From: a virus
Strand: one strand, 5' to 3'
DNA length: 39,489 bases
IMG/VR virus record: IMGVR_UViG_3300036980_000098
Span: 1-39,489 of that record
Shown: positions 1 through 17,659 of the stretch, one piece after another
Position numbering within the stretch: position 1 is the first letter of the stretch
Layout of the letters: every line of letters begins with the position of its first letter
Position numbers and translations under genes: made by a program
Notes under the pieces: generated by a model
Database searches by the model: none
What the model saw: only the letters and a program-made list of their open reading frames with translations
What the model was told of the DNA's origin: nothing

Positions 1-32
1 CTAAATCTTGGCAAGGAATGGCTGGAGAGTGA

Positions 33-260
33 GCATCCATGCGGGTTTGAGGGGGTACTGGCCTTCCTACCTAGTTTTTCCCCACATCAAAAGCAAACTA
101 AAAAAATTTTTCTTTTTCAAAAGAAAAAAGAAAAAAGAAAAAAGAAAAAAGAAAAAAGACGAAAAAAGTGTGCTTATATATAAATCTCTTTTAATAGATA
201 TATATATATGGGTAGCAAAGCCGGTTCCCCCTAGACGCTAGCATCCATGCGGGTTAGAGG
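33..260. repeat. 20-bp direct repeat flanking the AT-rich block (33-52 and 241-260)
   Basis: GCATCCATGCGGGTTTGAGG at 33-52 recurs with one mismatch at 241-260, and the two copies bracket the low-complexity block. Each copy includes the small palindrome GCATCCATGC-like core. The role is unknown. Confidence 0.6.
119..167. repeat. Tandem AAAAAAG heptamer repeat
   Basis: Five to six nearly perfect copies of a 7-bp A-rich unit make a polypurine tract on the + strand. Such tracts are slippage-prone. This one also creates the lysine-rich open frame at 8-241, which I do not regard as a gene. Confidence 0.8.
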
Positions 261-587
261 CCGACGCTTGACAACCTTTATTTGGGATTGTTGAAAAATG
301 AAAACTCTAAATTGTATGTAACAGTTTATTTTGTGTAAGATTGGCATTTTAGCCTTAAGGGGCTGGGCGTTTCCGACCAGTGTTAGAGTTTTTCGCGGTG
401 AAAAAGGCGTTCGATTGTGTGCGTGGGTTGGCGATAGTGTGCCGCGACGATTAAGAGCGCCACGCGAAAGGGTACGTGTTCGATGTTCAGAAGGTGCGTG
501 AGGTATGAAATTATTTGAGTGTGCATAGTTTGGAAAGTGTGCCGTGATGTCACAGATTTTTTGTGCGAAGTGTAGGGGCATGCGAAA

Positions 588-615
588 GAGCCCTCACGCG
601 TTAACGTGAGGGCTC
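588..615 (-). terminator. Hairpin terminator candidate after the leftward genes
   Basis: A perfect 11-bp stem (GAGCCCTCACG paired with CGTGAGGGCTC) surrounds a 6-nt loop, 22 bp beyond the stop codon of the leftward gene at 638. On the minus strand it is followed by only a short T run (CTCTTTCG). It is a plausible intrinsic terminator or RNA-stabilising hairpin for the leftward transcript. Confidence 0.6.
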
Positions 616-637
616 AGAGGGGTGAGGGGTGTGGGGC

Positions 638-904
638 TTAGTCCGTGCCGTAGGCGGATGGGATGTCACGGCCTGAATGGGCGCACGTTAAGGGCTCACC
701 CTCCCAATGGATGAACGCGTCCACAGCTTGCCAGTCGCGGCACGTGCCGGGGTGTTGCATGGCGCGCCTAATGAGTCGGTAGTTTTCTCTCGCACTCTGT
801 GCGTCGATAACTTCGCCGTCCACCATGAGGAGGGCCATTTGATAGCCCCCCGGCCATGCATAGCCGCCTGAACGGACGAAGTTTTTAAGGGTGTCGATTT
901 CCAT
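638..904 (-). CDS. Small conserved phage protein, function unknown
   Basis: An 88-residue protein. The N-terminus (MEIDTLKNFVRSGGYAWPGG) resembles a small protein family that I recall from many tailed phages, with an aromatic-rich core, a Tyr-Arg-Leu-Ile helix, a central Trp-x-x-Val-Asp-x-x-x-x-Trp segment and a C-terminal SAYG. Relatives as I remember them carry a CxxC-type pair near the C-terminus (C-D-H-C). Here only one cysteine of that pair remains (CAHSG), so any zinc site would be degraded. It is the last gene of the leftward cluster, 33 bp after the membrane peptide at 938-1006 and just before the hairpin at 588-615. The spacer upstream contains a perfect palindrome (917-932). The gene call is good; the function is unknown. 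Confidence 0.7.
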   Translation of the reverse strand: MEIDTLKNFVRSGGYAWPGGYQMALLMVDGEVIDAQSARENYRLIRRAMQHPGTCRDWQAVDAFIHWEGEPLTCAHSGRDIPSAYGTD

Positions 905-916
905 GATGTATCCAAT

Positions 917-932
917 GGGGGCACGTGCCCCC
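917..932. repeat. Perfect 16-bp palindrome between two leftward genes
   Basis: GGGGGCACGTGCCCCC is its own reverse complement and lies directly upstream of the start codon of the 88-residue protein. It could be an operator or an RNA hairpin affecting translation. It has no T tract, so it is unlikely to be a terminator. Confidence 0.6.
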
Positions 933-937
933 GAGGG

Positions 938-1006
938 TTAAAAGTAGAGGGCGAAAACGAGCCCGAAGGTCACGCCTAGAACGATAGCGAATGCGACCTG
1001 TCTCAT
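938..1006 (-). CDS. 22-residue single-span membrane peptide
   Basis: This tiny frame starts with an ATGA overlap on the stop codon of the upstream leftward gene (ATG at 1006-1004, TGA at 1005-1003), typical of translational coupling. The product begins Met-Arg-Gln and is then almost entirely hydrophobic (VAFAIVLGVTFGLVFALYF), long enough for one transmembrane helix with a short positively charged N-terminus. No family can be assigned at this length. Phage genomes often hide such peptides, which can act in lysis, superinfection exclusion or membrane-associated replication, but nothing here selects among these. The evidence is the coupling and the clean membrane-helix composition. A chance frame is the main alternative. 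Confidence 0.5.
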   Translation of the reverse strand: MRQVAFAIVLGVTFGLVFALYF

Positions 1007-1557
1007 GCTGCGGCTTTCATCAATGCGAAGGCTTTTGAGAGGGCTTTGTTCGCAAGATTACGATCCATCCCGTAAGTTTGAATGAGTTGCGCCATTGCCG
1101 CTACTTGCTCAGGGGTGGCCTCAGGGGTTTCGTCCTTTACTTCTTCCGTTGCACCCTCCTCAGCGGCGCCCTCCTCAGCGGCGCCCTCCTCAGCGGCGCC
1201 CTCCTCTGCGGCTTCGACTGCCGCAGCATGGGCGGAAGTTTCGCCCACAATGGCACGCACCATGCGGGACAATTTTGCAGCGGCACGATCCCTCAGGGTC
1301 TTATCGGCCCCGGACATTACAACGCGCCCCGTGCTTTGTTTCTTCAGAACCACGCCGTAAAACGACGCAACGTGTGGCAACAAAATTTCTGCGACTGCTT
1401 CGGGGCTTTGCCCCTGAAAACTCGCACCCCATTTTTCGACAAAATGATCGGCGGTTTCGACCGCACGTAAGCAAGCGTGCACGGCGCCCCGCAAGTCTTT
1501 TGATGATTCGGTCTCGGACATAGCTGCGCAGTGTGCGAAGTAGGGTGATGTGCTCAT
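1003..1557 (-). CDS. Hypothetical phage protein with an Ala-Glu-Glu-Gly repeat
   Basis: A 184-residue acidic protein. I chose the ATG at 1557-1555 because GGAG lies 7 nt upstream on the minus strand; the frame stays open upstream but has no better site. Residues ~1-100 look like a folded helical domain. A linker follows with about four copies of the unit AAEEG, then a Pro-Glu-Thr stretch, and a final helical segment (PEQVAAMAQLIQTYGM) that may be a small C-terminal domain. It heads the leftward cluster and is transcribed away from the control region at 1558-2346. An inverted repeat (1590-1606) lies between its ribosome-binding site and any upstream promoter. I do not recognise the family. Confidence 0.65.
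   Translation of the reverse strand: MSTSPYFAHCAAMSETESSKDLRGAVHACLRAVETADHFVEKWGASFQGQSPEAVAEILLPHVASFYGVVLKKQSTGRVVMSGADKTLRDRAAAKLSRMVRAIVGETSAHAAAVEAAEEGAAEEGAAEEGAAEEGATEEVKDETPEATPEQVAAMAQLIQTYGMDRNLANKALSKAFALMKAAA
1151..1215. repeat. 15-bp in-frame tandem repeat inside the leftward gene
   Basis: About four near-identical copies of the 15-bp unit CCTCCTCAGCGGCGC encode the AAEEG linker on the minus strand. The copies are identical at nearly all bases, suggesting recent expansion by slippage. Confidence 0.8.
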
Positions 1558-1589
1558 GTGATTCTCCGGGTTCAGGTTGTCTAGAAAAG

Positions 1590-1606
1590 TGTGACTAGGT
1601 GTCACA
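1590..1606. promoter_or_regulatory. Operator-like inverted repeat upstream of a leftward gene
   Basis: TGTGAC-N5-GTCACA is a perfect 6-bp dyad about 33 bp upstream of the leftward start at 1557. Half-sites resemble TGTGA/TCACA, but they are spaced 7 rather than the 6 bp expected for CRP. I therefore call it only a candidate operator. Confidence 0.4.
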
Positions 1607-1655
1607 GTTTCGAAGTGTCGGGGGCTGTTCAATCTGATACGCATTCGATGTGCGT

Positions 1656-1673
1656 GCGGGGGATAAACCCCGC
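1656..1673. repeat. GC-rich 6-bp-stem hairpin
   Basis: GCGGGG and CCCCGC flank the loop GATAAA. No T tract follows on either strand. It lies in the leader of the leftward gene and could affect its mRNA. Confidence 0.45.
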
Positions 1674-1836
1674 CAATCACCACGCGCCCCCGCTAACACT
1701 TCAAAACCGTTGCAACATGAGACAGATTCTATGACGAAATTAAACTGTTGTGTGATGTTTATTTACCACATCGAATAAATAGTTCGTGACCCTTTTCACG
1801 GATTACACAGCGAGTGGCAGAGCTAAGCCCGATTGC

Positions 1837-1920
1837 ACAGTTAGCTAATTAGCTAAATGCCTAAATGCCTACATAGCTAATGGCCTAAGCATACAGTTAG
1901 CTAATTAGCTAAATGCCTAA
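1837..1920. repeat. Duplicated 28-bp element with a perfect 16-bp palindrome
   Basis: The same 28 bp occurs at 1837-1864 and 1893-1920. Its core TTAGCTAATTAGCTAA is a perfect palindrome. Between the copies are further fragments of the same words (AAATGCCT, TAGCTAAT, GGCCTAAG). The identical copies, with starts 56 bp apart, suit a multi-site operator or origin-type iteron array. Confidence 0.75.
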
Positions 1921-1979
1921 GCCCGTCTCAGCGTCAAGCGAGCGCAGAGCGGCAGAGCAATTCCAGCCAATCGGCCCAG

Positions 1980-2035
1980 GCGCGACCCCACCGTACCGGC
2001 ACCCCCCGCTGTATGACGAGGGCTAGGGGTCGCGC
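1980..2035. repeat. 10-bp perfect inverted repeat with a 36-nt spacer
   Basis: GCGCGACCCC at 1980-1989 pairs with GGGGTCGCGC at 2026-2035. The spacer is C-rich on its left half. It lies about 360 bp upstream of the small terminase gene and could be part of a packaging site or a long stem-loop. Confidence 0.6.
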
Positions 2036-2066
2036 GGGAAACAGTATTTCACAACCACGCTGCGCA

Positions 2067-2192
2067 GTTATGCCAATTTAAGTAAGATAGCAGCCAGGCA
2101 CGTTATGCTAATTTAAGCACCACCCCCTATAAAAAATTTAGCGACGCATTGTTATGCCTTTTTAGCTAATGCCCTTGCGGTTCGCGTTATGC
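2067..2192. repeat. Four GTTATGC boxes spaced 35, 49 and 35 bp
   Basis: The heptamer GTTATGC occurs at 2067, 2102, 2151 and 2186. The first two copies extend to a shared GTTATGCyAATTTAAG, where y is C or T. The symmetric spacing suggests protein-binding sites. Confidence 0.6.
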
Positions 2193-2246
2193 TCTTGAGG
2201 TTGCGCTTTGAATAATTAGACCCCCCACCCCCACTATAAAAATTTT
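2121..2246 (+). promoter_or_regulatory. Two similar CACCCC...TATAAAAATTT boxes (possible promoters)
   Basis: CACCCCCTATAAAAAATTTA at 2121-2140 and a close relative at 2226-2246 combine a C run with a TATAAA box. TATAAA resembles a -10 element, but no good -35 box lies at the usual distance. They may be promoters for a phage-specific polymerase or factor. This is inference from the repetition and position only. Confidence 0.35.
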
Positions 2247-2282
2247 GCACAACCTTTTGTAAAACTTTAGACAGCCCAAAAC

Positions 2283-2309
2283 AAAAAAACCCGCTTGAAA
2301 CCAAGCGGG
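2283..2309 (-). terminator. Intrinsic terminator read on the minus strand
   Basis: CCCGCTTG-AAAC-CAAGCGGG (2290-2309) forms an 8-bp stem. On the minus strand it is followed by seven T residues (A run at 2283-2289), the classical intrinsic terminator layout for leftward transcription. No leftward gene lies to its right, so it may block antisense transcription of the packaging genes from entering the control region. Confidence 0.6.
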
Positions 2310-2346
2310 CAATGGAGGAGGTTCAGACAAAACTAACAGGAGAGAG

Positions 2347-2427
2347 ATGTGCGCAAAGCGCAAAGTAAATGTACACTGCGACCAACGAGAAGGCAAATAT
2401 GTCATCTACGCATACGCAAATGTTTGA
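2347..2427 (+). CDS. 26-residue leader peptide candidate overlapping the small terminase
   Basis: This short frame has the best ribosome-binding site near here (AGGAGAG just before ATG at 2347). It reads Met-Cys-Ala-Lys-Arg-Lys at the start and ends in YVIYAYANV before TGA at 2425-2427. It overlaps the first 29 bases of the small terminase gene in another frame. The likely role, if any, is translational coupling: ribosomes terminating inside the terminase start region could raise its expression. The alternative is that the site serves the terminase start at 2369 or 2399 at an unusual distance. No similarity recognised. Confidence 0.4.
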   Translation: MCAKRKVNVHCDQREGKYVIYAYANV

Positions 2428-3037
2428 GAACTTGGTGCAATTCGAGCCTGAAATATCACCAGCAGGCAACTTCACTCCTATAGATCAGGTAGGCGCTTCT
2501 ACTATGCTCGACGCTCAATTAGAGACGGCAGCATGGCTTGAAGACCTCGGAGTCCCCTCAGACAAAGACGTAGACGACAAACAGCAAACCAAAGCCGCAC
2601 GGACAGCCTTCACCGCGCTTAATTTCGATCTCAGCAGCGCAACGCAGAAGCAAGCCCTTGCCGCTATAAAGACGCCTGCCGCAGTGCAGCACCTCACAGG
2701 AATGCTGACGGCCTATGACTGGGACTTCATCCATCAGGCCAAGGAACTGCGCGGCTACGCTGTAGCAAAGATTGTTGAAGAGACAACCAACCCCAACGCT
2801 AACATCCGGCTGAAAGCCTTGCAGATGCTTGGCAACGTGACGGAGGTTGCACTCTTTACTGAGCGCGTGGAAGTCACCAAGAAGGACGCCAGCGAAGAAG
2901 AGATCGAGAAGCGCTTGCGCGAGCGCTTGGCTAAGTTCATCACCAACATCCCGTCCAGCGCCACGCCAGCAGAAGTTATTGACGTGAAGTCCATCGACGC
3001 TGAGATCGGTCAAGTCGTAGAGCGCCGGGATGCTTGA
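2399..3037 (+). CDS. terS: Terminase small subunit
   Basis: The DNA-recognition subunit of the packaging motor: it binds the packaging site and loads the large terminase. The 212-residue protein has a variable acidic N-terminal part (~1-85), a predicted helical core, and a segment containing LRGYAVAKIVEETTNPNANI, then KALQMLGNV and ALFTERVEV, matching the small terminase pattern I know from podovirus-like phages. A charged helix (EEEIEKRLRERL) and short tail follow. I chose ATG 2399 because AGAAGG lies just upstream; an in-frame ATG at 2369 would add ten residues (MYTATNEKAN) but lacks a close site. The gene overlaps the large terminase by 8 bp. Identification rests on this similarity and the position directly before the large subunit. 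Confidence 0.8.
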   Translation: MSSTHTQMFENLVQFEPEISPAGNFTPIDQVGASTMLDAQLETAAWLEDLGVPSDKDVDDKQQTKAARTAFTALNFDLSSATQKQALAAIKTPAAVQHLTGMLTAYDWDFIHQAKELRGYAVAKIVEETTNPNANIRLKALQMLGNVTEVALFTERVEVTKKDASEEEIEKRLRERLAKFITNIPSSATPAEVIDVKSIDAEIGQVVERRDA

Positions 3038-6000
3038 GGAACTCTCATCAGAGGCGATAGCCGCTTTGGTGGCAAACCTGCCCAGCATGCCGTTGGCAGA
3101 GAAGGAAGCCTTGCTGAGCGAGTTGGAAACGCTTGAGCACAAGAAGCTCTTAAAGCGCTGCCGTGACGATTTTCTGACGTTCTGCGCCCACCTATACCCT
3201 GAGTGGAAAGAAGGCCCCCACCACCGCTATATGAAGCCGTTGCTGCACAAAGTGCGGGACGGTGAAGAGACGCGGCTGACGGTTAGTATGCCCCCACGCT
3301 TCGGGAAACAACTAGACCATGACACTCCGATTTTGACCCAGAACCGGGGATGGGTGCGGCACGGAGCTCTGGTCATTGGCGACAAGGTGTTCCATCCCAG
3401 TGGCCTGTCTACAGATGTTGTTGGGCTTAGTGACGAGCAAACGCAGGACTGTGAAGTAGAGACGTTCGACGGGGCGGTTATCCGCTGCCATGAAAACCAC
3501 GAGTGGACGGTGTACGACCGCGCCAACGCTAAGTGGCGTACCGTCGAAACGAAGTTTTTTGAAAAGCAGAAGCTCTTGTCGGGGGAGCGAGCGCGTTTTC
3601 AACTACCGCTAGTGCATGCTTTGCAGTTTCCCGATGCGGATCTACCGCTGGATCCGTACTTCCTTGGTGCTTGGTTAGGTGACGGACGATCTTCGGCAAC
3701 GGATATTTGTGGCGCCGAGGACGACCTTGTGCGGATTGTTGAGCGTATACCGCACGAAAAAGGGTCACGGTGGGTGCATAAAGATACGGGGGTTGTTCAC
3801 CAAAACTTTGTTGGGGTGGTTAAAGCGTTGCGGGCTATTGGCGTGTTGAACAACAAACACATCCCCACGCTGTACATGCACGCCAGCGAGAGACAGCGCC
3901 GGGAGCTTTTAGCCGGTTTAGTTGATACAGACGGAACGCAGGACAAAACGGGGCGAATCCATTTTGGTGGGCTTAGCGAAAGACTTGTGCGAGATGTGGC
4001 CGAGCTAGCACGCAGTTTCGGATACCGCGTGGGCGTGATACAAGTTCCGCAAGATATGCGCGAACGCGAGATTAAAGCTACAGCCCCAACATGGCGATGC
4101 TGTTGGACGCCACATGACGGGCAAGGCGGAGGGACGCTGCCTCGCAAAAAAGCACATCGCGTACGGGGTAGACGCCAGATCGGCATTAAAGCGGTTCGTC
4201 GGGTAGCACCATCAAATGGGCGTTGTATACAGGTGGCTAGTGGAGACGGGTTGTATTTGGCGGGTACACACCTCACACCAACGCACAATTCCGAGACGAT
4301 CGCCTACATGTTTGTGGCGTGGTACTTGGGGCACTTGCCTAGTCATCACATTATGATGGCCACCCACACGGCAGCGCTCTCCGCTGACTTTGGGCGTAAG
4401 GTGCGCAACCTGCTCGACACAAAAGCGTACCGGGAGATATTCCCCAACACCACCGTCTCTAAAGACAAGAGCGCGGCAGACAACTGGACGACGACTGCGG
4501 GCGGCAAGTATCTGGCCATCGGTATCGGCGCTAACGTAGCCGGGCACGGCGCCCACCTTCTGGTGGTCGATGACTTGTGTATCCATAAAAACTCAATAGT
4601 CCACACCCCGCATGGCGATGTCCCTGCACACAGCGTACTTGTTGGCGACTACTTGCTGGGAGAAGCCGGCTGGCAGCAGGTGATTAGAAAAACCACGTCC
4701 GAACACGCGACTTCCGTGCGCATTGATGGGTTATGGATGTCCAACGAGCACCCTGTGTGGACGTTTAATGCCGGATGGCAACGCGCCAGCGCAGTTAATT
4801 TAGGGGATGTGTTACGGACGACTACGTTTTGGTGTAAAATCAAGTCCTCAATCTTAAGAGGGCTCGAAAATGTCACGACATCCAAAACTGTACGAAGCGT
4901 TCAAGCGAGAGTACAACATTTGGGCAATGATGAAACAGCGGTGCAACAACCCCAAGGCCGCCAACTACATCAACTATGGCGCGGTGGGGATCAAGGTGTG
5001 TCCAGAGTTCGAGACGTTTTCGGAGTTTTTGCGACTTCTTGGCCCCGCGCCATCAATCAAACATACGCTGGATCGCATCGACAACGCGCTGGGGTACACA
5101 GTGCAGAATTGCCGTTGGGCAGACGTGGAGACGCAGCAGAACAACCGAACGAACGGGGTTCATTTTGCGTACCAGGGGAAGATGCTGTCATCACCGCAGT
5201 TGGCGAGGATTGCAGGCATACCGACAGCGAGAATGGAGCATCGGCTAAAGGTGCTCAAAATGGCGGTAGAAGACGCAATGGCGTTGCCGAAGCAGAGTTG
5301 GGTGCAGCGCCCCGTAAGACAGAGGACTTTGGATGGGGTGTTGGTGCAGCAGTTCGCCTCTTTGTCCTCAGCAGCAGATTACGCCATGCAGCAGCAGTGG
5401 CCAAGAACAACCCGCCGAAAGGACGGGGTTGTGCAAAACAGTACGCCGCTGGACTACGATGGGTACAAGAATCTTTTGTACGCGGCGTTGAAGGCATCGC
5501 GGCATGCTTGGGGGTTCTTATGGGAGTACGTAGAGTCTCCCGAGTCGAGCATATAGACACTGCGGGGCAGTTTGTTAACTTTGAAGTTCGGGGGGATAAC
5601 ACCTTCTTTGCGCAGGGTATCCTCACGCACAACTGTTCTGAGCAAGCCGTTTTATCAAATCCCGACGCGGCGTTTGCCACCGCTTGGGAATACATACAGG
5701 TGGGCCCTCTGCAGCGCTTGATGCCCGGCGGCAAAATAGTAATGATCGGCACACGCTGGGGTAAGAAGGATCCGATCGGCAGGGCGCTGGCCTGGGCAGA
5801 GAACAACCCCAACAGCACGCCTTGGACTGAAGTGCGGTTCCCGGCCATCCTGCCGTCTGGCAAGAGCTTGTGGCCTGAGCAGTGGCCCGTGGATCAGTTG
5901 CTGGCAAAGAAGGCCGGTATGCAGCCCCAGTTCTGGGCCGCTCAGTACATGCAGGAGCCCACGTCCGAGGAGGGCGCCATCCTCAAGCGCGAGTGGTGGC

Positions 6001-6596
6001 AGATATGGGAGAAGGACGACCCGCCCGATGTGGAGTTTGTGATCCAGGTTTGGGATACGGCGCACGACACGAAGAGTCATAATGACTTCAGCGCCTGTAT
6101 TACATGGGGTGTGTGGTTCAACGAAGAGACCAGCCGCCATGAGATCATCATGCTCAACGCGGTCAAGGGGCGTTGGGAGTTCCCGCAGCTCAAGCAAAAG
6201 GCGCTGGACGAGTACAAGGAGTGGCAGCCCGAGTGTCTGCTGATCGAGAAGAAGGCCGCCGGCGCCCCGCTCATCCAAGAGCTTCGTCAGATGGATTTGA
6301 TCGTGGAGGAGTACAGCCCGTCACGCGCAGGCGCAGGTGTGTCCAACGACAAGAGAGCGCGAGTTAACTCGGTGGCACCGATGTTCTTTGATAAAGTTGT
6401 CTGGGCGCCAGATCACCGCTGGGCGTTCGAGGTGATAAATGAATGTGCGGAGTTTCCCCACGGCGAGCACGACGATTTCGTCGACGTATGCGCTATGGCC
6501 CTGGCGCGCTATAGACGCGGGGGCTTTGTGTCGCTATCGTCTGACCGCAAAGATGAGCCGCAGTTATTTCGCCGGCGCTCTGCTGCCTACTATTAA
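3030..6596 (+). CDS. terL: Terminase large subunit interrupted by two inteins
   Basis: The ATP-driven packaging motor and headful or cos nuclease. The 1188-residue precursor loses two inteins (residues 94-420 and 517-868), leaving about 509 residues, a normal large terminase length. In the exteins, the N-terminal helical part is followed by Walker A (SMPPRFGK | SE, split by intein 1) and Walker B (HLLVVDD, then L | C, split by intein 2). The coupling motif region GGKIVMIGTRWG comes next. The RNase H-like nuclease has VWDTAHDT, LLIEKKAAG and EHDDFVDVCAMAL carrying the usual acidic residues. The start overlaps terS by 8 bp, implying coupling. The motor cannot work until both inteins splice, since each sits in an ATP-binding motif. 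A complete HNH nuclease gene lies in another frame inside intein 2. Confidence 0.93.
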   Translation: MLEELSSEAIAALVANLPSMPLAEKEALLSELETLEHKKLLKRCRDDFLTFCAHLYPEWKEGPHHRYMKPLLHKVRDGEETRLTVSMPPRFGKQLDHDTPILTQNRGWVRHGALVIGDKVFHPSGLSTDVVGLSDEQTQDCEVETFDGAVIRCHENHEWTVYDRANAKWRTVETKFFEKQKLLSGERARFQLPLVHALQFPDADLPLDPYFLGAWLGDGRSSATDICGAEDDLVRIVERIPHEKGSRWVHKDTGVVHQNFVGVVKALRAIGVLNNKHIPTLYMHASERQRRELLAGLVDTDGTQDKTGRIHFGGLSERLVRDVAELARSFGYRVGVIQVPQDMREREIKATAPTWRCCWTPHDGQGGGTLPRKKAHRVRGRRQIGIKAVRRVAPSNGRCIQVASGDGLYLAGTHLTPTHNSETIAYMFVAWYLGHLPSHHIMMATHTAALSADFGRKVRNLLDTKAYREIFPNTTVSKDKSAADNWTTTAGGKYLAIGIGANVAGHGAHLLVVDDLCIHKNSIVHTPHGDVPAHSVLVGDYLLGEAGWQQVIRKTTSEHATSVRIDGLWMSNEHPVWTFNAGWQRASAVNLGDVLRTTTFWCKIKSSILRGLENVTTSKTVRSVQARVQHLGNDETAVQQPQGRQLHQLWRGGDQGVSRVRDVFGVFATSWPRAINQTYAGSHRQRAGVHSAELPLGRRGDAAEQPNERGSFCVPGEDAVITAVGEDCRHTDSENGASAKGAQNGGRRRNGVAEAELGAAPRKTEDFGWGVGAAVRLFVLSSRLRHAAAVAKNNPPKGRGCAKQYAAGLRWVQESFVRGVEGIAACLGVLMGVRRVSRVEHIDTAGQFVNFEVRGDNTFFAQGILTHNCSEQAVLSNPDAAFATAWEYIQVGPLQRLMPGGKIVMIGTRWGKKDPIGRALAWAENNPNSTPWTEVRFPAILPSGKSLWPEQWPVDQLLAKKAGMQPQFWAAQYMQEPTSEEGAILKREWWQIWEKDDPPDVEFVIQVWDTAHDTKSHNDFSACITWGVWFNEETSRHEIIMLNAVKGRWEFPQLKQKALDEYKEWQPECLLIEKKAAGAPLIQELRQMDLIVEEYSPSRAGAGVSNDKRARVNSVAPMFFDKVVWAPDHRWAFEVINECAEFPHGEHDDFVDVCAMALARYRRGGFVSLSSDRKDEPQLFRRRSAAYY
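3309..4289 (+). other. Intein 1 (Walker A site) with LAGLIDADG endonuclease domain
   Basis: Residues 94-420 of the terminase precursor, 327 residues. Excision joins FGK to SET and restores the Walker A lysine-serine pair. Splicing blocks are visible: block A QLDHDTPILT, block B around HENHEW, and a C-terminal block ending GTHLTPTHN with penultimate His and terminal Asn, followed by Ser as +1 nucleophile. Between them are two dodecapeptide motifs, LGAWLGDG and LAGLVDTDG, marking an in-frame LAGLIDADG homing endonuclease with both acidic catalytic residues. The first residue is Gln rather than the usual Cys or Ser, so the first acyl-shift step cannot follow the canonical route. Whether it splices needs testing. 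Confidence 0.9.
4812..4840 (+). promoter_or_regulatory. Promoter candidate inside intein 2 for the nested nuclease
   Basis: TTACGG (4812-4817), a 17-bp spacer and TAAAAT (4835-4840) form a sigma70-like pair 30 bp before the nested ATG. Boxes match the consensus only partly, so this is a candidate. Confidence 0.4.
4870..5556 (+). CDS. HNH-type homing endonuclease nested out of frame in intein 2
   Basis: A 228-residue protein starting at ATG 4870 with AAGAGGG 7 nt upstream. Residues ~15-95 match the His-Me finger homing nuclease family I recall from phages, with pattern W-x-x-M-K-Q-R-C-N-N-P, Y-x-x-Y-G-x-x-G-I-x-V-C, then HTLDRIDN (His65, Asp68, Asp71), a conserved NCRW (Asn80) and QQNNR. Residues ~100-135 (LSSPQLARIAGIPTARMEHR) look like a helix-turn-helix that reads DNA. 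It should cut an intein-free terL allele and so spread intein 2. The gene occupies exactly the usual endonuclease slot of the intein but in the +1 frame. It stops at 5556, just inside the C-terminal splicing block. Translation must start internally; it is not a fusion part. Confidence 0.88.
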   Translation: MSRHPKLYEAFKREYNIWAMMKQRCNNPKAANYINYGAVGIKVCPEFETFSEFLRLLGPAPSIKHTLDRIDNALGYTVQNCRWADVETQQNNRTNGVHFAYQGKMLSSPQLARIAGIPTARMEHRLKVLKMAVEDAMALPKQSWVQRPVRQRTLDGVLVQQFASLSSAADYAMQQQWPRTTRRKDGVVQNSTPLDYDGYKNLLYAALKASRHAWGFLWEYVESPESSI

Positions 6597-6604
6597 GGAT
6601 CCTT

Positions 6605-9091
6605 ATGGCTACCAATTTCATGGACAAGGGCCTGTACCAAGCCCCCCAAGGTCTAGAGCAAGAAGAAGCGGAACCGATCGAGATTGAGATCGTTGATCCC
6701 GAAGAAGTCTCCATCCACGCTGGAGGTCTAGACCTCACCATTACGCCCAAAGAGCCCAGTGCGGAAGACTTCAACGCCAACCTCGCCGAATATATGGACG
6801 CGGGCAAGATGCAGGCGCTGGCCTCTGAGCTGGACTCAGACATTCAGAACGACCGCAGCAGCCGCAAGGACTGGGAGCAAGCCTACGTCGACGGCTTGAA
6901 GCTGCTAGGTCTTAAGTATGAGGAGCGCACAGAGCCCTGGAACGGTGCCTGCGGCGTGTTCCACCCCATGATCACTGAGGCAGTGGTGCGGTTCCAAAGC
7001 GAGATGATCACCGAGACGTTCCCGGCAGCAGGCCCAGTCAAGGCCAAGATCATCGGTAAAGAAACGCCTGAGAAGAAAGCGTCTGCTGCGCGCGTCGTCG
7101 ACGACATGAACTACCAGTTGACCGAGCGCATGCAGGAGTTCAGGCCAGAGCACGAGAGAATGCTGTGGAACCTGCCGGCAGCAGGCAGTGCGTTCAAGAA
7201 AGTGTACTTTGACCCCAGTTTAGACCGTCAAATCTCGATTTTTATCCCCGCAGAAGACATTTTGCTGCCCTACGGCGTGACCGATGCACGCTCGTCGTAC
7301 CGCGTAACGCACGTTATGCGCAAGACAAAAAACGAAATTTTGAAGCTCCAGCAGGCTACTTTCTACTGCGAAACCGATATCGGCGAGCCAGAACACACCA
7401 AAGACGACATCCAGAAGGCCAAAGACAGCGAGACCGGCTTCAGCGACATCAACGACGAGCGGTTCGTACTGTATGAGTGCTGCGTTGACCTCGACTTGCC
7501 CGGATTCGAGGACGAGGAAGACGGTGAGCCCACCGGCATTGCCCTGCCTTACGTCATCACGCTCATCCGTGGCACGAACACCGTGCTGGCCATCCGCCGG
7601 AACTGGAAAGAAGAAGACGAACTCAAGCTCAAGCGTCAACACTTCGTCCAGTACAACTACATCCCCGGCTTCGGCCCCTACGGCTTCGGCTTGTTCCATC
7701 TGATCGGCGGCTTCGCCAAGTCGGCAACCTCCATCATGCGCCAGTTGGTGGACGCAGGCACGCTGTCTAACCTGCCCGGTGGTCTGAAGTCTCGCGGTCT
7801 GCGCATCAAGGGTGACGATACTCCGATCGCTCCAGGCGAGTGGCGCGACGTGGACGTCGGCTCTGGCGCCATGCGCGACAGCATCCTGCCCCTGCCGTAT
7901 AAAGAGCCAAGCGGCACGCTGTACAACCTGCTCAACACCATCGTTGAAGAAGGCCGTCGCTTCGCAGCTACCGCCGACATGCAGGTCAGCGACATGTCAG
8001 CCCAGGCGCCGGTGGGTACCACCCTGGCACTGCTGGAGCGCCAGCTCAAGGTCATGACGGCCGTGCAGGCACGGGTTCACTACGCGCTCAAGCAAGAGCT
8101 GGGTCTGATCAAGGACATCATCGCTGACTACGCCGATGAGGACTACAGCTACGAGCCTGAGACCGGCCGCCAGAGCGCTCGCAAAGAGGACTTCAAGCAT
8201 GTCGATATCATCCCGGTGTCCGACCCGAACGCGTCCACGCTGGCACAGCGCGTCGTACAGTACCAAGCCGTCATCCAGCTCGCCCAGAGCGCGCCACAGA
8301 TATACGACCTGCCCCAGTTGCACCGAGGCATGCTGGAGGTTCTGGGCATCAAGAACCCCGAGAAGCTAGTCGCGCTGCCGGACGATCAGAAGCCCGTTGA
8401 CCCCGTGACCGAGAACATGTTCGTGCTCAAGGGCAAGCCCCTCAAGGCGTTCATTCACCAAGATCACGAAGCACACATCCAGGTACACACCGCGATGATG
8501 CAGGATCCCGTGGTTCAGAAGCTGATGGGGCAGAACCCCCAGGCGCAGGCCATGTTTGGAGCCATCCAAGCACACATCGCCGAGCACGTTGGCTATGGCT
8601 ACCGCCAGAAGATCGAGCAACAGCTTGGTATGGCCCTGCCGCCAGAAGACGAGAAGCTGCCACCAGAAGTTGAGATCGCCATGTCCGGCATGATGGCCCA
8701 GGCTGCCCAGCAGGTGCTGCAGCAGAACCAAGCAATGGCTGCACAACAGCAAGCCCAGCAACAAGCCCAGGATCCTGTGCTGCAGATGCAGCAGCAAGAA
8801 CTGCAGCTCCGCTCCCGCGAGCTGGACATCAAGGAAAAGCAGATGCAGGTCAACGCGGCTGCCGAGTCCGATCGCATCGACATCGAGCGCGAGAAGATGG
8901 AGAACACGTCCGAACTCAACATGCTCAAGATCAGCAAGGACGTCGAGCACAAACAGCAGAGTCGGCAAGACCAGCAACAACGCGAAGGCGTGCGCATGGG
9001 GATCGACATTGCCAAGAGCAAGCAACAGGCCGCTGCGCAAGCGCGTCAAGCCGCCATGCAGAGCCAACAGAAGAAACCTACTGAGGAGTAA
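6605..9091 (+). CDS. Portal protein
   Basis: The dodecameric portal forms the unique head vertex through which the terminase pumps DNA. The 828-residue product has an acidic N-terminus (~1-60), a core recognisable by segments such as EPWNGACGVFHPMITEAVVR, GPYGFGLFHLIGG and DMQVSDMSAQAPVGTTLALLE, and a long Gln- and Ala-rich helical tail (~690-828, for example QQQAQQQAQDPVLQMQQQEL). That tail recalls the C-terminal barrel of long P22-type portals. Start ATG 6605 has AAGGA upstream and lies 8 bp after the terminase stop. The stop overlaps the next start (TAATG). Order terS, terL, portal is standard, so the assignment is firm. Confidence 0.9.
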   Translation: MATNFMDKGLYQAPQGLEQEEAEPIEIEIVDPEEVSIHAGGLDLTITPKEPSAEDFNANLAEYMDAGKMQALASELDSDIQNDRSSRKDWEQAYVDGLKLLGLKYEERTEPWNGACGVFHPMITEAVVRFQSEMITETFPAAGPVKAKIIGKETPEKKASAARVVDDMNYQLTERMQEFRPEHERMLWNLPAAGSAFKKVYFDPSLDRQISIFIPAEDILLPYGVTDARSSYRVTHVMRKTKNEILKLQQATFYCETDIGEPEHTKDDIQKAKDSETGFSDINDERFVLYECCVDLDLPGFEDEEDGEPTGIALPYVITLIRGTNTVLAIRRNWKEEDELKLKRQHFVQYNYIPGFGPYGFGLFHLIGGFAKSATSIMRQLVDAGTLSNLPGGLKSRGLRIKGDDTPIAPGEWRDVDVGSGAMRDSILPLPYKEPSGTLYNLLNTIVEEGRRFAATADMQVSDMSAQAPVGTTLALLERQLKVMTAVQARVHYALKQELGLIKDIIADYADEDYSYEPETGRQSARKEDFKHVDIIPVSDPNASTLAQRVVQYQAVIQLAQSAPQIYDLPQLHRGMLEVLGIKNPEKLVALPDDQKPVDPVTENMFVLKGKPLKAFIHQDHEAHIQVHTAMMQDPVVQKLMGQNPQAQAMFGAIQAHIAEHVGYGYRQKIEQQLGMALPPEDEKLPPEVEIAMSGMMAQAAQQVLQQNQAMAAQQQAQQQAQDPVLQMQQQELQLRSRELDIKEKQMQVNAAAESDRIDIEREKMENTSELNMLKISKDVEHKQQSRQDQQQREGVRMGIDIAKSKQQAAAQARQAAMQSQQKKPTEE

Positions 9092-9294
9092 TGTCCGTCA
9101 TGATGAAAGACTTCGCCCGCGTACTGCGCGATAAGCTACGCACGGACATGAATAACTACGCTGACGACCTCTCGGGAGGGGGTTGTCGGTCGTTTGACGA
9201 ATATCAGAAACTCTGCGGCGTGATTCAGGGCCTAGCGATCGCGGAATCCCATTTATTGGCCTTGCTAGAGAAAGTCGAGCAATCAGATGAGTAA
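9091..9294 (+). CDS. Small conserved phage protein between portal and GroES-like gene
   Basis: A 67-residue, mostly helical protein (FARVLRDKLRTDMNNYADDL, then GVIQGLAIAESHLLALLEKV). Its ATG overlaps the portal stop codon (TAATG) and its stop overlaps the next gene by 8 bp, so it is surely translated with its neighbours. Similar short proteins occur at this place in related podovirus-like genomes as far as I remember, but no function is known to me. Length and helicity would suit a head assembly accessory or a small adaptor. That is inference. Confidence 0.75.
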   Translation: MSVMMKDFARVLRDKLRTDMNNYADDLSGGGCRSFDEYQKLCGVIQGLAIAESHLLALLEKVEQSDE

Positions 9295-9715
9295 TATCAT
9301 TCTGCCCCCAGGTGTCAGCCTGCCCGAACCGATTCAACCCATCGACAAGCCGGAAGATGCTCCGCAAGAGCAAAAGGCCACGCAGGTTCCCCAACCTACA
9401 GGCTACAAGCTGCTGTGCGTAGTTCCTGATGTTTCAGACAAGTTTGAAAATTCCTCGATCGTCAAGGCCGAGTCTTTCATGAAGTCTGAAGAGCATGCGA
9501 CGACCGTGATGTTCGTGTTGAAGGTAGGCCCCGACGCATATAAGGATGCAGCCAAGTTCCCTTCCGGCGCGTGGTGTAAGGAAGGCGACTTCGTACTTGT
9601 TCGAACCTACTCTGGCACCCGGTTCAAGATATACGGCAAAGAGTTCCGTCTGCTCAACGATGACCAGATCGACGCTGTTGTGGACGACCCTCGCGGCATC
9701 AGCCGCGCTGCATAA
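9287..9715 (+). CDS. GroES-like co-chaperonin
   Basis: A 142-residue protein with a disordered Pro-rich N-terminus (~1-40) and a GroES-like beta-barrel. The segment GYKLLCVVPDVSDKFENSSI corresponds to the start of the barrel, TVMFVLKVGPDAYKDAAKFP to the conserved V-x-x-V-G region, and CKEGDFVLVRTYSGTRFKIY to the last strands. It probably forms a ring that caps the host GroEL and helps fold the major capsid protein, as T4 gp31 does; the position before scaffold and capsid genes supports that. Compared with GroES it has a longer N-terminus, and the mobile loop that touches GroEL cannot be delimited by eye. Confidence 0.8.
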   Translation: MSNIILPPGVSLPEPIQPIDKPEDAPQEQKATQVPQPTGYKLLCVVPDVSDKFENSSIVKAESFMKSEEHATTVMFVLKVGPDAYKDAAKFPSGAWCKEGDFVLVRTYSGTRFKIYGKEFRLLNDDQIDAVVDDPRGISRAA

Positions 9716-9724
9716 GGAGCTACC

Positions 9725-10663
9725 ATGACTGAAGAATACAAGTTCCCGGATGAAGAAGACAAGAAGGTCTCCGTTGAAGCGGATGATTCCTTTGAGGTCG
9801 AGATCGTTGACGACACTCCTGCAAAAGACCGTGGCCGCAAGCCGCTGGATCGTGAAGTTAGTGATCCGTCTGATGATGAGCTGGAGGCGTACTCCGACGG
9901 CGTCAAGAAGCGCATCAAAGAGCTTACGCATGCACGACATGATGAGCGCCGTGCCAAAGAAACGACCCAGCGCGAGAAGCAAGAACTCGAACGGATCGCC
10001 CAAGCGCTGATTGACGAGAACCGTCGACTCAAGACCCAGTACAACGAAGGCGCCAAGCAGTACGCCGAGACTGCCAGCTCCGCCGCAGAGATGGAGCTGG
10101 ATAACGCACGTAAGAAACTGAAGGCCGCGCACGAGGCTTTTGATACTGATGCGATTATTTCGGCTCAGGAAGAAATGTCGGATGCCAAACTACGTCTTCA
10201 ACAGGCTAGATATGCAAAGCAGGTTGCTTTACAGCCTCAAGAAGAAGTGGTACAAATCCCTCAACAAGTGCAACAGGCACCCCAAGTCGATGACAAGACT
10301 CTGCGCTGGCAGGCAAGAAACCAGTGGTTTGGGGCTTCTGGGCATGAGGAAATGACCAGCTTCTCACTAGGGCTGCATCAAAAACTAGTGAATTCGGGGG
10401 TTGACCCTCGCTCTGATGAGTACTTCGAGCAAATTGATGCTCGCATGCGTTCGGTGTTTTCGGATTTCTTTGGCTCGGACAATACCCAAAAGTCCGGTGA
10501 TGTATCCAAGCGGCCAGCAACCGTCGTGGCGCCGGGGACTCGCTCCACTGGTGCAAGAAAGATTCAGCTTACGTCCACGCAAGTCGCGTTGGCACGCAAG
10601 TTCGGTCTTACCCCACAGCAATACGCGGCTGAAATCGCAAAAATGGAGAAATCAAATGGCTGA
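9725..10663 (+). CDS. Capsid scaffolding protein
   Basis: 312 residues. A very acidic N-terminus (EDKKVSVEADDSFEVEIVDD) is followed by a long charged coiled coil (~55-165, for example RIKELTHARHDERRAKETTQ), a Gln/Pro-rich linker (QEEVVQIPQQVQQAPQVD), and a C-terminal region ending in a basic helix (TSTQVALARKFGLTPQQYAA). This build is typical of scaffolding proteins, which template the procapsid and leave before DNA packaging; the C-terminal helix usually touches the coat protein. It has AAGGAG before ATG 9725 and sits between portal and major capsid genes. The overlap with the next gene is 8 bp. Confidence 0.8.
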   Translation: MTEEYKFPDEEDKKVSVEADDSFEVEIVDDTPAKDRGRKPLDREVSDPSDDELEAYSDGVKKRIKELTHARHDERRAKETTQREKQELERIAQALIDENRRLKTQYNEGAKQYAETASSAAEMELDNARKKLKAAHEAFDTDAIISAQEEMSDAKLRLQQARYAKQVALQPQEEVVQIPQQVQQAPQVDDKTLRWQARNQWFGASGHEEMTSFSLGLHQKLVNSGVDPRSDEYFEQIDARMRSVFSDFFGSDNTQKSGDVSKRPATVVAPGTRSTGARKIQLTSTQVALARKFGLTPQQYAAEIAKMEKSNG

Positions 10664-11108
10664 AGCAACTTCCCGCACACCCCGTGATCTGGCATCACGC
10701 GAAAAAACTGCTCGTATGGTGTACACACCCCCGAGTACCTTGCCTGACCCTACCCCTGAGCCTGGGTATGTGTATCGCTGGGTAGCGACGCACGTTCTGG
10801 GACAGGCTGATCCTACCAACGTGTCTAAGAAGTTGCGCGAAGGTTGGGAACCGGTCAAGGCGTCTGACCACCCTGAACTGATGTTGCTTGGCAGCAAGAC
10901 AGGAAACGTCGAAATCGGCGGCCTCATGCTCTGCAAGATGGCCAAAGAACGTGCGCAAGCCCGTGACGCTTACTACGCCAACCAAGCACAAGCGCAGGTG
11001 GACTCAGTCGACAACAACTTTATGCGAAACAACGATCCTCGTATGCCGCTGTTCTCGGAGAAGAAGTCTTCGACCAGCCGTGGCGGGGGTTTTGGTTCTG
11101 GTACTTAA
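10656..11108 (+). CDS. Conserved phage structural protein
   Basis: 150 residues from ATG 10656, which has GGAG upstream and overlaps the scaffold gene by 8 bp; the frame is open further upstream inside the scaffold gene but that is shadow sequence. Recognisable segments are PEPGYVYRWVATHVLGQADP, SKKLREGWEPVKASDHPEL and FMRNNDPRMPLFSEKK, ending in a glycine-rich tail. I recall proteins with this pattern beside capsid genes of many podovirus-like phages, usually annotated as virion or hypothetical proteins. The role is probably in the head; it may be a minor capsid or cement component. Confidence 0.75.
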   Translation: MAEATSRTPRDLASREKTARMVYTPPSTLPDPTPEPGYVYRWVATHVLGQADPTNVSKKLREGWEPVKASDHPELMLLGSKTGNVEIGGLMLCKMAKERAQARDAYYANQAQAQVDSVDNNFMRNNDPRMPLFSEKKSSTSRGGGFGSGT

Positions 11109-11121
11109 CTAGGAGTCTTAT

Positions 11122-11745
11122 ATGGCCGCATCGCTTTCTCCCTACGGGCTTAAGCCCGTAAATTTGATTGGTGGGCAGTCCTTCGCTGGTTCTACCCGCG
11201 AAATCAAGCTGTCTACCAACAACTCCGCCGCTATTTTCAACGGCGACGTTATCCAGTTGTCTTCCGCTGGCAACCCTGCCGCCTTGGCAGCTACCCCCAC
11301 CGCCGGCACCACCAGCGGTATTGTCGGTGTTTGCCTGGGTGTGCGCTATGTGAGTCCCGCCACCAAGCAGCCCGCCTTCGCTCAGTTCTTGCCTGCCAAC
11401 GCAATCACCGGCGGTTATACCGACGTGTTCCTCGTTGTTGCTGACGATCCTGATCTGGTGTTCCAAGTTCAAGGTACGGCTGCCTTCGGCTCGCTGACCA
11501 ACGGCGCCGCTGGCGCAGTCGGCAAGAACGCTGCTCTGGGCTTCTCCACTTCCGGTAGCACTGCTACTGGCAACTCGGGCGTTAACATTGTTGTCGGTAC
11601 CAACGGTGCTTCTTTGGCACTGACCGCCACCTTGGCAATGCGCGTTGTTGGCGTGGTTGCTGGCACTGAGACTGATGCCTACCCAGAACTCCTGGTTAAG
11701 TTCAATCTTGGTACGCACTCGTACTACCTCGCCACCGGCGTCTAA
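11122..11745 (+). CDS. Capsid decoration-type structural protein
   Basis: 207 residues, starting MAASLSPYGLKPVNLIGGQ after AGGAG. It is rich in Gly, Ala, Thr and Val and predicted mostly beta-stranded, with motifs like STREIKLSTNNSAAIFNGDV and VVADDPDLVFQVQGTAAFG that I know from proteins directly before the major capsid gene in many aquatic phages. A likely role is capsid surface decoration or a second coat protein. The two genes share strong ribosome-binding sites, suggesting high expression. There are no cleavage or membrane features. Family-level assignment is good; the exact role is inferred from position. Confidence 0.75.
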   Translation: MAASLSPYGLKPVNLIGGQSFAGSTREIKLSTNNSAAIFNGDVIQLSSAGNPAALAATPTAGTTSGIVGVCLGVRYVSPATKQPAFAQFLPANAITGGYTDVFLVVADDPDLVFQVQGTAAFGSLTNGAAGAVGKNAALGFSTSGSTATGNSGVNIVVGTNGASLALTATLAMRVVGVVAGTETDAYPELLVKFNLGTHSYYLATGV

Positions 11746-11755
11746 GGAGTAAATA

Positions 11756-12688
11756 ATGGCTATTTCACGCGCACAACTGCTTAAAGAACTCCTGCCCGGC
11801 TTGAACGCCTTGTTCGGCTTGGAGTACGCTCGCTACGGCGAAGAGCACAAGGAGATCTACGACATCGAGAAATCGGAACGTAGCTTTGAAGAAGAAACCA
11901 AGCTCGCCGGTTTCGGCGCTGCTCCGGTGAAGAACGAAGGCGCTGCCATTGCTTATGACAATGCGCAGGAAGCTTTCACCGCTCGCTACACCCACGAGAC
12001 CATCGCTCTGGGCTTCTCCATCACTGAAGAAGCAGTGGAAGACAATCTGTATGACAGCCTGTCTGCCCGCTACACCAAGGCTCTGGCCCGTGGTATGGCT
12101 TACACCAAGCAAGTCAAGGCGGCTTCCGTTCTGAACAATGCGTTCAGCGGCAGCTTCCTGGGCGGCGATGGCGTATCCCTGTGCGGCGTCAACTCCAGCA
12201 GCACCCGTGTTGGTCACCCCCTGGTCAACGGCGCTGTTAACTTCAACAGCCCCGCCACTGGCGTGGACTTGAATGAGACTTCCCTGGAAGCTGCAATCAT
12301 CCAAATCGCTGCCTGGACTGACGAGCGTGGTCTGCTGATCGCTGCCAAGCCACGTAAGCTGGTTATCCCCCCAGCGTACATGTTCGTTGCCAAGCGTCTG
12401 ATGGACACGGAACTGCGCGTCTCGACCACTGATAACGATATCAACGCTATCAAACAGTTGGGCGCCATTCCGGAAGGCTACTGCGTCAACCACTTCTTGA
12501 CCGACGTGAACGGCTGGTTCTTGCTGACCGACGTGCCTAACGGCTTGAAGCACTTTGAGCGTATGGGCATGACGACCTCCATGGATGGCGACTTTGATAC
12601 CGGTAACGTGCGTTACAAGGCTCGTGAACGGTACAGTTTCGGCTGGTCAGATGCGCTCGGAATTTGGGGCTCGGCCGGTTCGACATGA
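11756..12688 (+). CDS. Major capsid protein
   Basis: 310 residues with the pattern of the Mu gpT-like branch of HK97-fold coat proteins: LLPGLNALFGLEYARYGEEH at the N-terminus, GAPV-like loop (GFGAAPVKNEGAAIAYDNAQ), RYTHETIALGFSITEEAVED, LARGMAYTKQ, PRKLVIPPAYMFVAKRLMDT, and a C-terminal KARERYSFGWSDALGIWGS. It forms the icosahedral shell after scaffold-directed assembly. It has AAGGAG before ATG 11756 and is followed 22 bp later by a strong terminator, as expected for the most abundant transcript. No N-terminal cleavage domain is evident at this length. Confidence 0.88.
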   Translation: MAISRAQLLKELLPGLNALFGLEYARYGEEHKEIYDIEKSERSFEEETKLAGFGAAPVKNEGAAIAYDNAQEAFTARYTHETIALGFSITEEAVEDNLYDSLSARYTKALARGMAYTKQVKAASVLNNAFSGSFLGGDGVSLCGVNSSSTRVGHPLVNGAVNFNSPATGVDLNETSLEAAIIQIAAWTDERGLLIAAKPRKLVIPPAYMFVAKRLMDTELRVSTTDNDINAIKQLGAIPEGYCVNHFLTDVNGWFLLTDVPNGLKHFERMGMTTSMDGDFDTGNVRYKARERYSFGWSDALGIWGSAGST

Positions 12689-12736: not shown

Positions 12737-12746
12737 ATTTTTTGTT

Positions 12747-12774
12747 TTGTTACAAGGCAAAAGAGTGTTATTCT
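12747..12774 (+). promoter_or_regulatory. Promoter candidate for the first GIY-YIG gene
   Basis: TTGTTA (12747-12752), a 16-bp spacer and TATTCT (12769-12774) preceded by an extended TG form a plausible sigma70 promoter just after the terminator and about 34 bp before the nuclease start. Confidence 0.45.
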
Positions 12775-12807
12775 TCAGACACCATCAACTCTCTACTGCT
12801 TAGTAAC

Positions 12808-13560
12808 ATGGCTGTTATCTACCGCATCACGAACATGACAAACAACTACTACTACATCGGTAGTGCGGAGTCTTTTGCCCGAAGAGAGTGGCAACACAAG
12901 TACGACCTTAAGCGTGGGGCACATAAAAACCCGCACTTGCAAGCGGCTTGGAACAAGTACGGTGCAGACGCGTTTGTTTTTGAGGTTATTGAGGACGTTC
13001 CTAGTGGTGTAAACCCACTACAGATAGAAGACACATGGCTCGTGCAGTGCGTCGGTAAACCAGAGTGTTACAACATCAACGCTTGTGCAGAGTCTCCCCG
13101 TTCTGGCATGGTGCTTTCTGCAGAGAGTAGAGAAAAGGTGAGCCTTAATCGTAAAGGTAAGGCCGCCGGTAAAGAGCACTATCGGTACGGTAAAACACTG
13201 TCGGACGAGGTCAAAGCCAAAATAGGCGCAACCCAAAAAGGCAAAGCCAAAGCGTCTGGGCGCAAGGTCAGTGAGGAGGGGCTTGCTAAGATCAAAGCCA
13301 ACATCGAGGCCGGTCGTAGCCATATGCATTGGCTAGGGAAACAGCACACGGAGGATGCCAAGGCGAAGATGTCTCGACCTGTTGTGGCAGTCAGTCCTAC
13401 GGCTGTTGAGACGGTGTACGCCAGCATAACGGCGCTTCGGGATGCGCTAGGACTCAAGCCGCCAACTGTGAATCGGGCGCTGAAATCGGGCGAGCCGCTT
13501 ACCAGAGGGAAGTTTGCTGGGTGGAAATTCGCATATGTTGCCTCTACCGAGCCCGCATGA
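12808..13560 (+). CDS. Freestanding GIY-YIG homing endonuclease
   Basis: 250 residues from ATG 12808 (the frame is open from 12742 but those residues look unlike the family). The N-terminal catalytic domain has VIYRI (3-7), YYIG (15-18), Arg26, Glu74 in IEDTW and Asn89 in CYNIN, the same layout as I-TevI. Residues ~110-195 hold NUMOD3-like repeats (for example SAESREKVSLNRKGK and SDEVKAKIGATQKGK). The C-terminus (ALRDALGLKPPTVNRALKSG, then GKFAGWKF) is a NUMOD1-like helix-turn-helix that binds DNA. It probably cuts the homologous locus in competing phages so that the gene is copied in. It is inserted between the capsid terminator and the next structural gene, with no strong ribosome-binding site. 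Confidence 0.9.
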   Translation: MAVIYRITNMTNNYYYIGSAESFARREWQHKYDLKRGAHKNPHLQAAWNKYGADAFVFEVIEDVPSGVNPLQIEDTWLVQCVGKPECYNINACAESPRSGMVLSAESREKVSLNRKGKAAGKEHYRYGKTLSDEVKAKIGATQKGKAKASGRKVSEEGLAKIKANIEAGRSHMHWLGKQHTEDAKAKMSRPVVAVSPTAVETVYASITALRDALGLKPPTVNRALKSGEPLTRGKFAGWKFAYVASTEPA

Positions 13561-17658: not shown

Positions 17659-17659
17659 C

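Follow-up and report, generated by a model that had tools for sequence, protein, structure and literature searches.

What role can be assigned to a palindromic repeat that lies between divergent genes in one virus and is replaced by other sequence in the nearest relatives of that virus? The window analyzed here is the whole of a virus record of 39,489 bases, and its positions 1837–1920 hold a repeat block that a first-pass annotation had read as a cooperative operator or origin iteron. This palindromic repeat is the form that a rapidly changing repeat patch takes in one lineage. Of greater interest is a conserved core element (GACCCCACCGTACC) 60 bp to the right of the block, which is common to many uncultured phages before the packaging genes and may mark where DNA packaging starts.

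An octamer array between divergent genes

The 28-bp duplication described in the first-pass annotation is present as ACAGTTAGCTAATTAGCTAAATGCCTAA exactly at 1837–1864 and 1893–1920 (56 bp start to start), and the 16-bp palindrome at its center, TTAGCTAATTAGCTAA, lies exactly at 1841–1856 and 1897–1912. Both belong to a degenerate tandem array in an 8-bp register (1841–1920, not assigned to a strand), the ten units of which read, in order, TTAGCTAA, TTAGCTAA, ATGCCTAA, ATGCCTAC, ATAGCTAA, TGGCCTAA, GCATACAG, TTAGCTAA, TTAGCTAA, and ATGCCTAA. The spacing of 56 bp is thus seven units of 8 bp, and the 16-bp palindrome exists because the palindromic octamer TTAGCTAA stands in two head-to-tail copies. 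Allowing up to three mismatches, TTAGCTAATTAGCTAA was matched four times in the window as compared to 0.07 expected. The octamer TTAGCTAA occurs five times (0.37 expected), with all five copies inside the intergenic region, four in the array and one in the last of three iterons described below. Within the intergenic stretch used for repeat statistics (1684–2368, 685 bp), the longest non-overlapping exact repeat with copies up to 200 bp apart was 28 nt, while 300 Markov copies reached a maximum of 13. By mismatch scan, Markov copies, and octamer count, the array is far from chance, in agreement with the earlier statement that it is not chance AT-rich DNA. Its head-to-tail tandem units, apparent in the octamer register and in the TRF rows, are those of a minisatellite (variable number tandem repeat, VNTR). 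A short 8-bp repeat remnant on the plus strand at 1940–1958 (GAGCGGCA ×2.5) resembles an array of CGGCAGAG ×5.2 found in the relative L004. Other tandem arrays of the window are AAAAGAA ×5.9 at 119–159, near the contig end, and a perfect AGTACAAGCTCC ×10 at 27460–27579 inside an open reading frame (ORF). A known RNA element was rejected (no Rfam match at gathering score), as were a tRNA-linked site (no tRNA gene) and a phage known by its DNA (no match for 1–12000 in a near search or 1700–2300 in a distant one). A host search in genome contigs returned two distant MAG matches at 43–44% identity.

The block is noncoding and lies between divergent genes, as had been described, with the left ORF on the minus strand and a terminase-small-subunit-like (TerS) ORF on the plus strand. 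The left gene (1003–1557, minus strand) occupies an ORF of 1003–1683 with a likelier start at ATG 1557 behind GGAGAA, and yielded no PHROG match and no Pfam match above cut-off. The TerS-like gene (2369–3037, plus strand) has a likely start at ATG 2420, or 2399. Its identity is weakly supported, by position, by the PHROG matches of relatives, and by a BFVD fold match: the PHROG terminase-small-subunit family matches 24 of 49 members at E values up to 0.1 (best 4e-4), and four BFVD matches were found at E ≤ 0.001, one of them named TerS (E 6e-4), while the best (E 5e-10) is unnamed. The window's own protein showed no PHROG match under E 0.01, a sub-threshold HEAT_2 match only in Pfam, and no tblastn match among annotated phage records. 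Two structure models were made (pLDDT 57.6, poor, and 70.8), and no fold match in the PDB was found at E ≤ 0.001. The large terminase gene follows (3030–6596, plus strand; PHROG terminase large subunit, E 1.2e-84; Pfam Terminase_6C) and is itself followed by portal and structural genes. Its frame carries two intein-like insertions, after Walker A-like and Walker B-like stretches, the first with sub-threshold LAGLIDADG matches; L003, L004, and L005 have no such insertion, L009 has one at the first site, and L010 has one elsewhere, approximately 38 residues into the C-terminal piece. Further along, the window encodes a GroES-like co-chaperonin (9287–9715), two ORFs that resemble homing endonucleases (12742–13560 and 17540–18328; matches to PHROG families of homing endonucleases, one of which is called GIY-YIG), and, at 21657–22016, a small protein whose match is a family labeled "starvation-inducible transcriptional regulator."

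The repeat slot is hypervariable among close relatives

A TerS search of viral contigs found 26 loci, six of which were aligned with the window across the repeat slot: L003, L004, L005, and L007 (TerS 98–99% identical to that of the window), L009 (82%), and L010 (80%). The region upstream of TerS was also read by eye in 17 loci. In the seven aligned sequences the flanks align while the contents of the slot differ. L004 carries (GCACA)×14.4 followed by (CGGCAGAG)×5.2, L005 carries (GCAGA)×28.4, and L007 carries (GCACA)×23.4 followed by an 11-mer ×10.8; L003 and L010 share a CCAAG/GCCAA pentamer at ×15–17, and L009 combines a 13-mer with a 10-mer. Thus, among phages with 98–99% TerS identity and conserved flanks, the palindrome array is replaced by AGCAC, AGCAG, or CCAAG pentamers, 8-mers, and 11-mers. 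The same unit can also differ in copy number (CCAAG, 15.2 versus 16.8; GCACA, 14.4 versus 23.4), so that both copy number and composition vary between close relatives in this between-phage comparison, as in a minisatellite. Head-to-tail short units of varying copy number are what the slot shares with minisatellites; it differs from them in that phages 98–99% identical in the next gene have entirely different units, in sequence as well as in length. The sequence of L010 is like L003 left of and within the array and like L009 to the right of the core, a pattern suggestive of recombination there.

A left array was detected in 12 of 126 scanned loci, ten of them in the TerS neighborhood of the window (including L011, L027, and L128, which were added by hand and whose core is not exact) and two of them short (L193 and L236, 2.8 copies). 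A lower detection threshold added a few more short left arrays, e.g., in L127, L129, L130, and L142, of up to 3.5 copies. In a TerS tree of 49 rows, where the window row represents its 98–99% relatives, the five array-bearing rows form one group (one change, support 77/84), with L027 on a long branch. The slot is a hypervariable minisatellite, with long arrays seen only in the TerS clade of the window. Eleven of the 12 left-array units of this clade hold AGC (3.7 expected), an observation made post hoc in related sequences and not used as evidence.

The first-pass annotation had staked its reading on finding the same element at the same place in related phages. The exact palindrome is present in one of the seven aligned sequences: it is gone from L004, L005, and L007, with flanks conserved, and from L009, and L003 and L010 retain one imperfect TTAGCTAC-T/C-NAGCTAA word ahead of their pentamers. 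Its 22-mer was found in no other viral contig of the scan (from which the window's own record may have been absent). The sequence conservation in close relatives that an operator would have is thus not seen, and this search tells largely against the element as proposed. Given its replacement in close relatives and the absence of its 22-mer from the other contigs, the exact palindrome cannot act as an operator that is both essential and sequence-specific. A conserved operator was accordingly rejected, and annotation of the palindrome by itself as an operator is unwarranted, whether the locus serves packaging or replication.

A conserved core, a second box, and iterons

The core, a candidate packaging (or origin) signal, consists of GCGCGACCCCACCGTACC and a C-rich tail (1980–2007, plus strand). 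GCGCGACCCCACCGTACC is exact in all seven aligned sequences and was found in 25 contigs of the scan, and a scan with GACCCCACCGTACCCCCA gave at least 120 stretches. Altogether, 138 core-bearing loci were examined (the window plus 25 plus 112), some of which are near-copies from different samples. The large terminase lies downstream and on the same strand as the core in 129 of 130 testable loci, eight of the 138 being too short to be scored, and alignment to the terminase begins 0.5–1.9 kb from the core. The sole testable exception, L171 (a contig of 55,360 bp), has its terminase on the opposite side and pointing away from the core, and its second box is unrecognizable. Across these loci, identity to the C-terminal piece of the window's large terminase ranges from 42%, with a median of 54%. 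Since conservation of the core is forced by the search in the core-bearing set, it was tested instead from the TerS side. A 16-mer core at up to three mismatches was present in 40 of 63 TerS-retrieved loci, as compared to approximately 0.3 expected from shuffles, and missing from 23; the 63 are those of 80 with at least 600 bp upstream, and they are related and so do not represent independent events.

A second box, box B (AACAGTATTTCACAACC; 2040–2056, plus strand), was read from the sequence 56 bp from the G of GACCCC and was used in no search. Among 90 distinct core sequences, the pattern AACA[CG]T[AG][TA]T occurs in 49, at +55 in 43 and at +56 in six (shuffled control, 0.4%), and is unmatched in 41, although several of 25 printed sequences show a variant near that place. 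The core is single-copy in 11 of 12 matching records (the other has an extra two-mismatch match), with four of those 16 records lacking a match, and likewise in the ten matching records of a set of 13. Characterized relatives examined were Phage DSL-LC04 and HMO-2011, together with the terminase regions of Pelagibacter phages HTVC023P and HTVC027P and Planktothrix phage Pag-Yong1. A core 18-mer at up to three mismatches was absent from DSL-LC04 1–50000 and HMO-2011 30001–55282, and a second core 18-mer at up to four mismatches was absent from the whole of both and from the 11-kb terminase regions of the other three. Short-consensus matches in phage records (five Streptomyces phage, E 0.6; one fecal, E 0.7) were taken as chance, and a literature search limited to open-access papers found no description of the core element.

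Between box B and TerS, the clade of the window carries direct repeats of GTTATGCCAATTTAAGTAAG approximately 35 bp apart. In the window, three such iterons were read from the sequence (2067–2171, plus strand): GTTATGCCAATTTAAGTAAG at 2067, a variant at 2102, and GTTATGCCTTTTTAGCTAATG at 2151. Iterons were not recognized outside this clade. A C-rich then AT-rich box, GAATAATTAGACCCCCCACCCCCACTATAAAAATTTT, follows (2210–2247, plus strand), the first part of which is invariant in the seven aligned sequences. An [AG]TGTACACT element near the TerS start (2369–2377) is kept in relatives, though the likely protein start is downstream, and is possibly a promoter element. On the minus strand, the C-rich boxes at 1980–2007 and 2220–2235 present G runs that might form G-quadruplexes.

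The iterons share words with the left array. The octamer TTAGCTAA occurs once, at the iteron, in G001, G002, and the L005 contig; L010 has one further copy in the slot, and L007 and L009 have none. From this distribution over array and iteron, the array resembles an amplified set of words from the control region itself. An iteron-type control region is a reasonable description of the locus, because the array is beyond chance and TTAGCTAA recurs in the right-hand iteron; to that extent the first-pass reading of operator or iteron is supported, whereas its exact palindrome has been replaced in relatives with 98–99% TerS identity. The same distribution bears on the proposal that the array is a functionless slippage product, left beside the core by an accident of one lineage. 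Complete replacement of its sequence between close relatives and the restriction of long arrays to one TerS clade would both suit a neutral array, but TTAGCTAA, otherwise absent from the window, recurs in a conserved iteron, and each of the nine further clade members with sufficient sequence has an array of some kind in the slot. We regard neutrality as improbable.

Comparably improbable is a divergent promoter or operator, in which the core and box B would be read by a phage regulator or RNA polymerase, with the palindromic array serving as a cooperative operator of the left or late genes. Divergent genes on both sides, palindromic octamers, and the conserved TGTACACT-type element at the TerS start are consistent with such an arrangement. 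Its difficulties are the loss of the palindrome beside conserved flanks described above, a promoter scan of 1–3100 that gave two sites (2.3 expected) with none in the array, a left gene with no known regulator domain above cut-off, and a nearest left ORF (at least 100 aa) that is on the minus strand in only 81 of 106 loci.

Packaging site or replication origin

The reading that best explains these observations, though we hold it tentatively and as somewhat short of probable, is that the repeat is a slippage-driven, fast-evolving patch on the outer side of a cos- or pac-like packaging site upstream of the terminase genes. The block of core, box B, and iterons would be the DNA-packaging control site: TerS would bind the iterons, much as it binds the R sites in lambda cosB, and the large subunit would be positioned by the core/box B block for cutting of DNA concatemers. 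The left array, on the outer side and near the would-be other chromosome end, would arise and turn over by replication slippage and unequal recombination and would tolerate complete replacement. It would be at most an accessory patch or spacer, in which the exact palindrome would have no required sequence-specific role. Phages that differ in their arrays nevertheless have TerS proteins of 98–99% identity, which makes it unlikely that TerS requires a particular sequence in the array as its site.

The main rival, possible but unlikely in our estimate, is a replication origin, where an initiator would bind the core, box B, and the iterons, the AT-richer DNA at 2069–2290 would unwind, and the left array would be an accessory iteron patch. 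Iterons beside AT-richer DNA (GC 0.40 at 2069–2290 versus 0.56 for the window) are what an origin has, and 12 of 13 large genomes have divergent genes on either side of the core, the exception being G017, the genome of L171. The strand-composition check suggested in the first-pass annotation was ambiguous: the cumulative GC-skew minimum lies no more than 2.3 kb from the core in five of the 13 (G003, G004, G015, G019, and G020, including the two largest amplitudes) and elsewhere in eight. This pattern is compatible with an origin and is confounded with coding strand. In G001, skew rises at 42–50 kb, over approximately 8 kb of mostly leftward genes beside the core, and the minimum is therefore 8 kb away. 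Against an origin, no initiator gene was recognized beside the core by PHROG or Pfam, and an origin does not require the near-strict terminase linkage.

Packaging is favored over an origin because of that near-strict linkage and a layout that follows lambda-type cos, a likeness of layout rather than membership. As in cos, the core stands just upstream of a putative small-terminase gene, the TerS-like gene lying between core and large terminase in the clade of the window, and the iterons of this clade are candidate sites placed between core and TerS, where cos has its TerS-binding repeats. Several points count against packaging: the lack of physical ends or a shared contig-end position at the core, the orientation of L171, the 23 of 63 TerS loci without the core, the 41 of 90 sequences without the box B pattern, the characterized relatives that lack the core, the weak TerS assignment, and the limitation of iterons to one clade. 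Retention of an element at this junction is also what a divergent promoter or an origin would produce.

Contig ends were considered as well. Genome ends were not detected at the core, and large contigs carry it at scattered internal positions. Read by eye within a 500-bp margin on either side of the core, 16 contigs end on the left (1 to 456 bp away; nine within 162 bp) and three on the right, with no shared position. The left excess may reflect a bias of the viral collection toward late-gene fragments or be a weak sign of ends. Three large contigs have an exact 127-base end overlap, as in circular assemblies; circularized or concatemer assemblies would hide ends. The lack of fixed ends at the core neither proves nor excludes cos or pac.

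Comparison with known systems

The arrangement is reminiscent of several known systems. In lambda-type cos, cosQ and cosN are conserved between relatives and cosB, with its repeated TerS sites, is variable (PMC4669245). The likeness is twofold: the order relative to terS is conserved block, repeated sites, and small-subunit gene, and in both systems the block is common to relatives while the repeated sites vary (PMC4669245). At the present core, in contrast to lambda cos, no genome end or cohesive overhang was seen, and the likeness is one of layout. Lambda is not known to carry a hypervariable satellite beside cosQ.

Iteron-type origins of plasmids and phages have short direct repeats beside an AT-richer stretch, as the window does at its divergent junction. 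They differ from it in that its neighbor is TerS-like rather than a recognized initiator, its array is not conserved, and the skew minimum is near in only five of 13 genomes. In herpesviruses, the terminal a-sequence places pac motifs with C/G runs next to tandem arrays of varying copy number, and the C-rich core beside a varying tandem array bears some resemblance to this.

Implications

A bolder proposal, which we consider speculative and rather doubtful, is that a large group of uncultured phages uses a packaging-start element (a C-rich core joined at a distance of 55 bp by a second box) of a kind not known among cos and pac sites, and that in one clade terminal cleavage and repair keep writing new tandem repeats beside it while the terminase genes stay near-identical. 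If the locus were instead an origin, the core tag would locate the start of replication. If the core is a packaging start, it would supply a sequence tag for terminase recognition in uncultured phages (contigs of approximately 55–68 kb) and would allow their genomes to be oriented and their ends placed, and the adjacent repeat slot would preserve a natural history of slippage or of the processing of DNA ends.
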